From Lachnospiraceae bacterium (lineage in GTDB: Bacteria; Bacillota; Clostridia; Lachnospirales; Lachnospiraceae): a stretch of 64,000 bases of DNA. Both the position numbers and the translations under genes were made by a program. Below are positions 58,368 to 63,963 of the stretch, in pieces. Numbering within the stretch: position 1 is the stretch's first letter; every line of letters starts with the position of its first letter. The DNA is taken from contig JAIDHX010000029.1 in NCBI GenBank assembly GCA_029053015.1, forward strand, positions 1-64,000, read 5' to 3'. The notes under the pieces were generated by a model. The model had not been told where the DNA came from and ran no database searches. It worked only from the letters and a program-made list of their open reading frames with translations.

Positions 58368-58399
58368 GGTAATTATTTATTATTAGTCAAATGCAATAA
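58368..58399 (+). repeat. left copy of 32-bp inverted repeat
   Basis: GGTAATTATTTATTATTAGTCAAATGCAATAA; 29/32 identical to the reverse complement of 63932-63963. Confidence 0.9.
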
Positions 58400-58426
58400 A
58401 CAGACAGTTTTGTAAGGGGGAATTTT

Positions 58427-59506
58427 ATGAAAAACAGTATAATCATATCTTTAGATAACGACTATTTCCTTGTCAATAATTTTGTTGAAAATTTATTAAT
58501 GTGTACTTCATTTGAAAACAAGCATGAAATAATTGTTGTATCCGATAGCTGCAAAAACGTGGAAACGCTTTCCTATCTTCAAAATATACAGAAAAAGTAT
58601 TCTTTTTTCCACTTTTATGAGCTTCCGGAGAAAAAAGGATATAGTGTTGCGAATAATTATGCAGTTTCTAAAGCATCTGGCGAAATACTTACATTTTTGA
58701 ATAGTGATGTATTTCCCCAAAAAGGCAGTATTGATATTTTGGTTGACCATATTGAGAATGGACTGGCAGATGCCGTTCAAGGATTATTAATATTTCCTCA
58801 AAATGGAAAGGTACAGAGTACTGGACATCTTTTCATTGAGTCGATGGCGCCGCATGTCTATCAAGGAAAAAAAGTAGATGACCCTCTTGTTTTGCAAGAA
58901 GGTGCCCGCCAAGCACTGACCACAGCTTTTTTAGCCATGAAAAAGTCCACATTCTTACAATATGAAGGATTTGATGAATGCTACTATAATGCTTATGAGG
59001 GAAGAGAGTTAACTTTAAAAATATGTAATTCCGGCGGACTTTGTTTATATACTCCAAAGGCTATAGCATTTCACTGTATGGGCGGAACACGCAAATTTAT
59101 ATCTAAAAATGAAAGTCAACAAAAAGGCATATTTTGGTCAAGATGGAACACAAAGATAAAATGTGACCTTAAAGATTACTTACGCCCTCAATTCACTTTG
59201 GAGATGCAAAAACATTCCTATTTTATAATTAACTGTAGTTATCTGATCGGTTGGGATAAGGTTTTGCAGGAACTTAATATATCTGCTTCTGATATGATAG
59301 AAATAAAGGATCGTTTTGGAACAAATATAAACATGTATTATAATCTCCCCTACAGTGCAATCGCATATAATGGTCCATACTTATTTCTGACTAATAAAAT
59401 TGACGAAATACGCAGCAATAGGAACTGGATAGAACTCAGAAATAACCCCTTGGATTTAGCCATGGACGTCCATGGCAATATAGAAAGGTTAAGCAATTTG
59501 ATATGA
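58427..59506 (+). CDS. glycosyltransferase family 2
   Basis: HEIIVVSDSCKN, NNYAVSKASGEILTFLNSDV; SD AAGGGGG. Confidence 0.9.
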   Translation: MKNSIIISLDNDYFLVNNFVENLLMCTSFENKHEIIVVSDSCKNVETLSYLQNIQKKYSFFHFYELPEKKGYSVANNYAVSKASGEILTFLNSDVFPQKGSIDILVDHIENGLADAVQGLLIFPQNGKVQSTGHLFIESMAPHVYQGKKVDDPLVLQEGARQALTTAFLAMKKSTFLQYEGFDECYYNAYEGRELTLKICNSGGLCLYTPKAIAFHCMGGTRKFISKNESQQKGIFWSRWNTKIKCDLKDYLRPQFTLEMQKHSYFIINCSYLIGWDKVLQELNISASDMIEIKDRFGTNINMYYNLPYSAIAYNGPYLFLTNKIDEIRSNRNWIELRNNPLDLAMDVHGNIERLSNLI

Positions 59507-60609
59507 AAAAAATCTTAATATTGATTAATAATATGAATGGCGGCGGGGCAGAAAAATTATTATTACAGTTCGTCTGCTTTTTACATGAATATACAGATTA
59601 TGAAATTCATCTTTTGCTTACATATCACACGGGTATTTATTTGGAAGACATTCCAGATTATGTGAATAAACGATTTGTTTTTTCTAAAAAGGATTATGCG
59701 AGTGAAGAAAGGATAAAGAATAAAGCAAAAGAAATAAGCAGAAAATACATTTATGATATTTATGATTGCGCAATTGCCTTTTTGGAGGGTAGTTCAACAA
59801 AGCTTTTGGCATATGCAGATATTCCGGATAATTCGAAATATGCATGGGTGCATATTGATTTAGATAAAAGACATTATACAGAGTCGTTGTATAAGAATAT
59901 TCAAGAAGAAAGAGAATGCTATCGTCATTTTAATAAGATTGCTGCTGTTTCAAAAGGGGTTTATGATGCGTTTTTAAAAGTGTTTGGTATTGAATTCAGC
60001 AGTAAACTGCAAATAGTTTATAATCCCATTGACATGGGGGATATAAGAAAAAAGGCTCAGGAAAGCTGTATTATATATTCGAAATTTACAATTTGTTCAA
60101 TAGGGCGTTTGGTGACTCAGAAGGGCTTTGACAGATTAATTCAGTCAGCTGCACAATTAAAAGATATGGGGTATGATTTTAATTTAATTATTTTAGGCGA
60201 TGGTGCACGCAAAGATGAATTATTTGCATTAATAAATGATCATAAATTAGAAAATAATGTTTTTTTATATGGGTTTATTAAAAATCCCTATCCATACCTG
60301 GCAGCAAGCAATTTGTATGTATGCTCATCAAGAACAGAAGGCTATTGTTTAGCAGTCTGCGAAGCAATAGCCTTGGGTAAGCCAGTAATATCAACACAAT
60401 GTACTGGGGTACCTGAAGTGTTTGAATTGTGTAATTGCGGTACCATTGTCTCTAATAACACAGAGGGTATCACTACAGGAATAAAAAAATGTTTGGATGA
60501 CTATGAATATATCCGTGTGTTACAAAACCGTTCAGAAATAGGACGGCTCAAATTAACCTATAAAGAAAATCTTTTGGCAATGTTAAAATTTTTAAATATT
60601 GAAACATAA
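59503..60609 (+). CDS. glycosyltransferase family 4
   Basis: NNMNGGGAEKLLLQF, CSIGRLVTQKGFDRLI, SSRTEGYCLAVCEAIALGKPVI; 4-bp overlap with GT2. Confidence 0.93.
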   Translation: MKKILILINNMNGGGAEKLLLQFVCFLHEYTDYEIHLLLTYHTGIYLEDIPDYVNKRFVFSKKDYASEERIKNKAKEISRKYIYDIYDCAIAFLEGSSTKLLAYADIPDNSKYAWVHIDLDKRHYTESLYKNIQEERECYRHFNKIAAVSKGVYDAFLKVFGIEFSSKLQIVYNPIDMGDIRKKAQESCIIYSKFTICSIGRLVTQKGFDRLIQSAAQLKDMGYDFNLIILGDGARKDELFALINDHKLENNVFLYGFIKNPYPYLAASNLYVCSSRTEGYCLAVCEAIALGKPVISTQCTGVPEVFELCNCGTIVSNNTEGITTGIKKCLDDYEYIRVLQNRSEIGRLKLTYKENLLAMLKFLNIET

Positions 60610-63600: not shown

Positions 63601-63868
63601 TAAGTCCGGATAATATGGTAGGGTCAAGGTCTTTTTTGCCAACATTATCTGAATCTTTGCGGTATTTTGCTTCCGCCCAGCTTTCATATCCGTCCTGATA
63701 GGTATGAAACATATCAAGATTATTATCCCATGAAGCTTTAGTTGGAAGCCAATCAAAATCTGAAAAAGTTTCTTTTAAATATTCTAATGCAAGATTCTCA
63801 AAAGATTTCCCGGCTTTTCCGTTGTTAGATTCATTTAATATATATATTTGTGACCAATCAATACTCAT
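60617..63868 (-). CDS. putative defence protein: PD-(D/E)XK-like nuclease, STAND-like P-loop NTPase, C-terminal helical repeats
   Basis: GKSFENLALEYLKETF...NNLDM...WAEAKYR; ITIYSKSGNGKTYLLQ Walker A-like; CILLLDDIQKLND Walker B; long helical C-terminus. Confidence 0.7.
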   Translation of the reverse strand: MSIDWSQIYILNESNNGKAGKSFENLALEYLKETFSDFDWLPTKASWDNNLDMFHTYQDGYESWAEAKYRKDSDNVGKKDLDPTILSGLIKEKIKLILYITNGTIASHNLNRITYGARIKNISVSCINRNQLESWLYENPDKYQKYFGNSLPETDHSQEYVNVKDVSFYSVNSIDFGANKLHEKLDLKQEYIMCITLSASKKGHLHIEKNDYPFDFVDSPQWPSANEISYTCGTSSFFLLIRTQKISDKPITLKICLENGEEIKHIINCEIADKQEIMVVHSSQNQVSFKINKCLENMTDKGHNAIITIYSKSGNGKTYLLQKLFIDYSYRTEMSLVRFVDADSSIYNYTLLCKIIFFLTFGNLLWIDKDDENDFQEFYEKRKELLINLSYNTIYDFEQLNSLFAGCFDMLIAEKCITELNERIKLKNQLLLDPQSKNSHCILLLDDIQKLNDIQGIFLVNLLKQSDFLKYNATIILSYNNESKYRNTLEQVTSLTANKFEIDDLSRKDIRESLLKNIHIANGTIAESQLSDFPQNAFLLEETLRVMRSYKRDYFDVPEVLKEIKIIKKENLILENKFTGFEDRFAIIDVIYEFEKGMPSAALILKPLSATEADLKRMEDACIIKQAGDRYIPYHDILRNAYRHLRNELQYNEKMGEYISEIIKSDPLSELIDLNQALAVLVKCGDAYKKIYIDKCIEQRDYYFSRTLFKESSFYAESIYFVSLKEKKDIQYFDEEELYAVFVLADCLKHNGDLVRSTELFQELFDKANNVSTIKYEAGAELVNAQYRALRLTEAVDLAYSLMLSLNNKIRNCKYIYENNLDNRIIRSYYTVTNRYMMILQLQNNYDKAFKLYRKSMKAIAKTQPQEDKARLCGELATYIMDFARGLYFVNFPEAKRLMEIAFNFFLQNEKVHCRRISMCKSDLLFLNYLGTYNSEISQYDNGHFFEIENDQIAKGYHREVYKTQLKHYACLLIQSEHDGSPQYGSIKEILEDIYSQFDDAADARSEYILCSMLAYVEKKEGSIKYGQELLSKIEKHVSLLGEDYQEAYFHNKSNFEKADKVAFALADIVLEDNIYYLDPRIW

Positions 63869-63931
63869 ATAATATATTACTCCATCGTATCTAAAATGCA
63901 GGAAATAATAGGAATGTTCGCTATTTTCCAA

Positions 63932-63963
63932 TTATTGCATTTAAACAATAATAAATAATTACC
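63932..63963 (-). repeat. right copy of 32-bp inverted repeat
   Basis: Reverse complement GGTAATTATTTATTATTGTTTAAATGCAATAA. Confidence 0.9.

Follow-up and report, generated by a model that had tools for sequence, protein, structure and literature searches.

In the invertible G (C) segment of phages Mu and P1, alternative gene sets are opposed to one another, depend on one external promoter and have the gene for their recombinase alongside; in Mu, a serine invertase (Gin) alternates versions of one tail-fibre function. Switching by an Xer-type enzyme has been described in Mycoplasma agalactiae, where Xer1 is dedicated to the vpma inversions that switch expression (PMC2268961), and the RecV-type promoter switches of Clostridioides difficile combine a site-specific recombinase with short inverted repeats to give phase variation (PMC5386303, PMC7446863). 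Here we describe a locus of a Lachnospiraceae bacterium (GenBank assembly GCA_029053015.1) in which the gene of a tyrosine recombinase adjoins a segment where two glycosyltransferase genes, GT2 and GT4, converge with the gene of a nuclease-STAND-TPR protein. The locus lies at the end of the window, the whole stretch of 64,000 nucleotides that was analysed, which is C22:1-64000 within a contig of 141,740 bp (C22; JAIDHX010000029.1) of an assembly totalling 3.69 Mb. We consider it probable that the dif-like sites at 58224 and 64977 bound an invertible segment acting as an either/or switch. In this model, the Xer-type recombinase (57303-58229) would recombine inverted sites with identical 5-bp spacers, turning round ~6.7 kb that holds the convergent GT2-GT4 and Avs-type nuclease-STAND-TPR sets. 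A promoter outside the far (right) site, reading inward, would transcribe whichever set adjoins it, and the set beside the recombinase would be silent or read at a low level. As assembled, the STAND gene would face this promoter across an old insertion sequence (IS) remnant. The locus would be one member of a Lachnospiraceae family sharing the same recombinase and site type and carrying many immune-like/enzyme pairs.

The segment resembles that of Mu and P1 in its opposed gene sets, and a putative external promoter has statistical support here. It differs in its enzyme, which is a tyrosine recombinase and not a serine invertase of the Hin/Gin family, and in alternating unrelated immune-like and enzyme sets instead of versions of one function. 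The vpma system switches paralogous surface lipoprotein genes, and its cargo, sites and host are unrelated to those of the present family. RecV switches and gut invertons flip short promoter or leader regions (PMC11892184), whereas here gene sets of 2-7 kb would flip and the promoter would stay fixed. One inverton group (139), mostly from Clostridia, is reported to be linked to a tyrosine recombinase group, which might or might not be the present family (PMC11892184). We found no description of this switch family in the searchable literature, although an earlier mention may exist. Phase variation of surface structures is already familiar, and switching between STAND, TIR or SIR2 modules and enzyme sets would be its new aspect. 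If the model is correct, common gut bacteria would switch immunity itself on a reversible basis, and a single recombinase would apparently serve several segments. Having one recombinase and short, defined sites would also make the system easy to manipulate genetically, and would help to pair the functions of many unknown genes.

Inverted sites around two convergent gene sets

The initial annotation of this DNA had reported a 32-bp inverted repeat bracketing the convergent genes, and had taken it to bound a possible inversion switch. The repeat, GGTAATTATTTATTATTAGTCAAATGCAATAA at 58368-58399 (+) with a 29/32 copy at 63932-63963 (-), is indeed present, and the two copies are the sole matches in the window at up to 3 mismatches (0 expected from shuffles, which excludes chance). 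A search for further copies, proposed as a check, returned the same two only across the whole assembly at this threshold, with none at unrelated promoters. The distances described for the locus also hold: the recombinase stop codon (58229) precedes the left repeat by 138 bp, the start of GT2 is at 58427, the GT4 and STAND genes are 7 bp apart (60609 / 60617), and the STAND ATG (63868) lies 63 bp inside the right repeat.

As segment boundaries, however, the 32-mers proved to be a degenerate inner edge, with the outer sites lying farther out and the right arm beyond the window. Inverted, 100% identical arms of 166 bp are found at 58218-58383 (left, + strand) and C22:64818-64983 (right). The outer edge of the arm is a near-palindromic dif-like site, GGATAAT-TCCTG-ATTATTG (site A, 58224-58242; site A', C22:64959-64977), which on the left overlaps the stop codon of the recombinase gene. 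A second site, with spacer TTGGG, lies 58 bp further inward (site B, 58282-58300; site B', C22:64901-64919), and the left arm also contains most of a degenerate innermost site C (spacer TATTT), which is the left 32-bp repeat; the right 32-bp repeat is its inner copy. Overall, the dif-like sites of the arms follow the pattern GGATAAY-N5-RTTATCC. Matched inverted sites with an identical crossover region, the mark of a DNA-inversion switch, are therefore present at this locus.

The right arm is separated from the right 32-bp repeat by a degraded ~850-bp element of the IS1595/ISXO2 family (about 63964-64817, of which 63964-64000 on the minus strand falls in the window; Pfam DDE_Tnp_IS1595 3.3e-13). 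This decayed insertion has a 16-bp direct repeat on both sides, part of site C, and no obvious short target duplication.

A genome-wide search with AAAGGATAATNCNNGATTATT gave four perfect matches, which form two inverted pairs with spacers differing between pairs, and 0 matches for the reversed control; one more site pair has two mismatches to AAAGGATAATNCNNGATTATT. The perfect pair that lies outside the window's segment bounds a second putative invertible segment of the same genome, at C22:69960-71838 (L004:14960-16838, L004 being the label of the window's own locus). It has the same site type with spacer ACTAG and convergent genes, which encode a methyltransferase and a 332-aa protein that belongs to no known family. 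No recombinase adjoins it, and TTGACT-N17-TAATAT could be read by eye outside its right site.

The recombinase itself (57303-58229, + strand, 308 aa; Pfam Phage_integrase 4.4e-42), our proposed invertase, is encoded outside the segment. Its catalytic residues R154, K178, H247, R250, H273 and Y282 are invariant among 10 recombinase homologues, as expected of the cognate enzyme of an inversion switch, and its adjacency to the arms suggests that it acts on their sites. A housekeeping XerC/XerD identity was rejected, because scores fall below both equivalog cut-offs (237.4 bits against 329.6 for XerD, 234.6 against 335.2 for XerC), as was an integron IntI-type integrase (108.6 bits against 265). 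We also rejected a transposon or IS enzyme, as the gene lies outside the arms and not inside terminal repeats.

Recurrence and orientation in Lachnospiraceae

Of 299 genomes of the family, 53 encode homologues of the recombinase (E up to 1e-40), and 80 recombinase loci, nearly all in Lachnospiraceae, came from scanning the species genomes of GTDB. Sites were sought within 600 bp after the recombinase, followed by a partner with the same spacer; identical-spacer pairs were required because a loose-threshold site scan gave many chance matches. An inverted partner at least 17/19 identical was present at 27 loci, the window's included, and a direct partner, serving as control, at 0. Partner sites are 2-7 kb apart, their spacers vary between loci and agree within each pair, and the consensus from 80 site sequences is GGATAAT-N5-(A/G)TTATC. 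In many loci (e.g. L068 and L069), double or triple site arrays are mirrored with order and spacers kept. Were the repeats simply a shared promoter or operator upstream of two co-regulated genes, with no recombination, their position just upstream of both outermost genes would be explained. Neither the matching of spacers within pairs nor the exclusively inverted arrangement would be, however, and the repeat has no other copies in the genome while a site overlaps the recombinase stop codon; we regard this explanation as highly improbable.

Comparison of segment orientation in related genomes, a check that had been proposed for the locus, revealed homologous pairs in both orientations relative to the recombinase. 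For the Thoeris genes, ThsA is near the recombinase in Hungatella hathewayi L055 (14743-16969) and ThsB in L116 (11102-13255), the proteins being 74/77% identical. A TIR/AAA pair is likewise opposite in L079 and L099 (56/54% identity), a four-gene arrangement is mirrored between L084 and L105, and GT2/STAND lies one way in L004 and L090 and the other way in L078, L143 and L135.

Assemblies also tend to break at the sites. The contig stops no more than 200 bp past the recombinase at 26/80 loci and no more than 200 bp ahead of it at 3/80 (p 1.5e-5), and for 11 contigs the end is no farther than 8 nt from the site core. In the isolate Clostridium sp. HBUAS56010, the last base of the site is where the recombinase contig stops, a second contig begins on the site, and the segment forms a contig of its own (3077 bp) that carries the site at each end, the shared stretch being 18 bp only. 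This break pattern is the signature of coexisting orientations, and Lacrimispora amygdalina shows a similar contig pattern. In two metagenome-assembled genomes (MAGs), G361 and G363, both flanks run into one segment end, which takes in 70-odd bp of what looks like coding sequence; because the MAG cases might be mimicked by a long terminal repeat, we gave isolates more weight. Identical arms of 70-140 bp do occur in some segments, and the relatives are mostly MAGs, such that the breaks could be assembly effects of mixed strains or long terminal repeats, inversion being ancient and not ongoing. We think this unlikely, as the 18-bp stretch of HBUAS56010 is far under the usual k-mer, yet all contigs break there, and as so many contigs end within a few nucleotides of the core. 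Ongoing inversion in relatives is strongly indicated, and the segment of the present genome probably inverts as well. The switch proposed in the initial annotation thus finds support in relatives, through matched inverted sites, both orientations and breaks at sites, although the boundaries and promoter assigned to it were wrong or incomplete.

Segments may also lie away from any recombinase. In H. hathewayi WAL-18680, a segment with inverted sites (L216:5600-9700) adjoins a SIR2-like gene and no recombinase, ~145 kb from the recombinase locus, and carries the same ATP-grasp/radical SAM versus pentapeptide pair as four recombinase-linked loci. One recombinase may therefore act in trans on several segments. 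The finding of the same pairs at recombinase-free places, together with the second segment of the present genome and the wide variation of cargo between relatives, would also suit arms that terminate a mobile cassette (a transposon or an integron-like element), with inverted sites reflecting movement. With the recombinase outside the segment, and with recombination between inverted sites leading to inversion and not excision, we disfavour this alternative, as we do the shared operator, both of which had been raised for the locus. The same pair is also found both ways round next to the same kind of recombinase, and assemblies break at the sites; a cassette is thus quite unlikely, although horizontal exchange of segments may take place in addition to switching.

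A 126-kb IMG/VR contig labelled viral (L153) encodes a 57% identical recombinase and has an inverted pair of sites flanking genes of PARCEL-repeat surface proteins, from which the same switch type may serve surface-protein variation.

Immune-like and enzyme cargo

Gene sets are convergent in nearly all 26 tabulated segments, with gaps of -33 to 259 bp, and the frequent cargo is a STAND, TIR or SIR2 module facing an enzyme set. An immune-type NTPase paired with a surface-type enzyme set, as pointed out for the window, is thus a recurring theme in relatives. Nuclease-STAND proteins face GT2, either alone or accompanied by GT4 or a nucleotidyltransferase; TIR and STAND-TPR proteins face a D-Ala-D-Ala-ligase-like ATP-grasp and a lysine-aminomutase-like radical SAM protein; and STAND proteins face an SHMT-like enzyme, a NodU carbamoyltransferase with or without an IspD-like protein, or a GHMP kinase. 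Further pairs are ATP-grasp/radical SAM versus pentapeptide repeat, TIR versus small AAA, and ThsA versus ThsB. Many of the partner enzymes, as in L059, L066, L113 and L201, resemble paralogues of core metabolic enzymes (IspD, IspE-like GHMP kinase, D-Ala-D-Ala ligase, SHMT and lysine aminomutase). The Thoeris pair of L055 comprises a SIR2-STALD ThsA (1.1e-60) and a TIR ThsB, with homologues of both in L116. Both loci therefore hold the two proteins of Thoeris, whose genes form one operon in the known system and are convergent within an invertible segment here.

In the window, GT2 (58427-59506, + strand, 359 aa; Pfam Glycos_transf_2 6.3e-15) is followed by GT4 (59503-60609, + strand, 368 aa; Pfam Glycos_transf_1 9e-33, GT4-conflict 1.5e-06); a weak PADLOC match of GT4 to Csn2 was dismissed. 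GT2 and STAND homologues travel together: contigs bearing STAND homologues are 5.1-6.3 kb in size in 24 of 37 cases, and there are 11 exact size matches with contigs bearing GT2 homologues. The uniform sizes were not counted as evidence for inversion, since short-k assembly would break at the arms regardless.

The opposing gene (60617-63868, - strand) encodes the 1083-aa nuclease-STAND-TPR protein, its ATG at 63868 being backed by homologues of 1083 aa. An AlphaFold model (predicted local distance difference test, pLDDT, 83.5) shows an N-terminal nuclease-like domain, a beta domain, a STAND NTPase and a TPR-like array, and the best Foldseek matches were a STAND-TPR protein (6mfv, 2.2e-11) and Avs4 (8dgf, 2.0e-09). 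Residues D52, E66 and K68 are conserved, as are G314, G316 and K317 of the P-loop; the nuclease assignment rests on the motif and on Mrr_cat in a comparable protein of L135. Model, fold search and motifs together place effector, STAND NTPase and TPR sensor in one protein, the layout of Avs (antiviral STAND) proteins. The curated defence profiles of PADLOC, however, do not recognise the window protein. Close relatives of the STAND gene were absent among 40 related genomes, and we know of no Avs genes in invertible pairs. Judging from their families, the STAND protein and the other immune-like cargo may function in immunity. The switch might then serve bet-hedging, with abortive-type defence set against surface or metabolite change.

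Promoters and expression of the two sets

An exact, inward TATAAT is present within 60 nt outside the far site at 9/26 loci and on the recombinase side at 1/26 (paired p 5e-4), as compared to a mean of 2.4 and a maximum of 7 in 500 shuffles. Two isolates (HBUAS56010 and L. amygdalina) also fit an inward -10 outside the far site when read by eye. These patterns suggest that a sigma-A-like promoter often lies just outside the far site, reading inward. The minus-strand TATAAT at 63970-63975 that the initial annotation had noted is present as described; it sits in the end of the IS insertion, and is probably not the switch promoter. A likelier candidate for the fixed promoter lies past the window end and outside the right arm (C22:65045-65062, - strand), behind a terminator-like hairpin of the upstream gene.

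On the other side, a terminator-like hairpin separates recombinase and site at 14/30 loci in which the stop codon does not overlap the site (1.0 expected), a count that depends on settings, as a short-loop scan gave 2/29 and longer loops 14/30. Leaders are short, many being ~30 nt and so too short for a promoter plus ribosome-binding site, and some could hold a promoter. Under such a promoter logic, as read from sequence, the far set would probably be expressed and the near set silent or weakly expressed.

Alternatively, both sets could form one system that is expressed either way, with inversion only shifting relative levels, the far set reading from the fixed promoter and the near set from the recombinase or a promoter of its own. 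Co-inheritance of ThsA with ThsB, the 11 contig sizes shared by GT2 and STAND homologues, the window lineage's lack of a terminator and the leaders with room for a promoter all speak for this. Leaders of ~30 nt and hairpins that isolate the recombinase side in many relatives do not, and we hold the one-system explanation to be possible but doubtful. Because split ThsA/ThsB segments suggest such a separation, the switch might instead divide the halves of an immune system between sister cells, sensor/signal half versus effector/modifying half, in a clonal division of labour reset by inversion; this is a rather unlikely reading.

Several observations weigh against the either/or switch that we favour. 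Evidence for the promoter is statistical, and the window lineage has no terminator between recombinase and site, so that transcription of the recombinase may extend into the near set and strict exclusivity is uncertain there. Strict either/or expression also fits Thoeris badly: its two proteins are needed together, hence at least some systems need both products, and the Thoeris pairs make exclusive versus joint expression directly testable. PADLOC, run on the window proteins, gave no match for the STAND protein. The present genome assembles through in one state with no sign of both orientations, and the contig breaks of MAGs could also arise in other ways, such as from strain mixtures or long repeats. 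Finally, a site pair lies downstream of the recombinase in 29 of 67 testable loci, leaving over half without one; some of these recombinases may work on segments farther away.

Between the two invertible segments of this genome, C22:65403-69787 holds tandem paralogues of XRE-type regulators, two of ~229 aa and two small, with 72-75% DNA identity.
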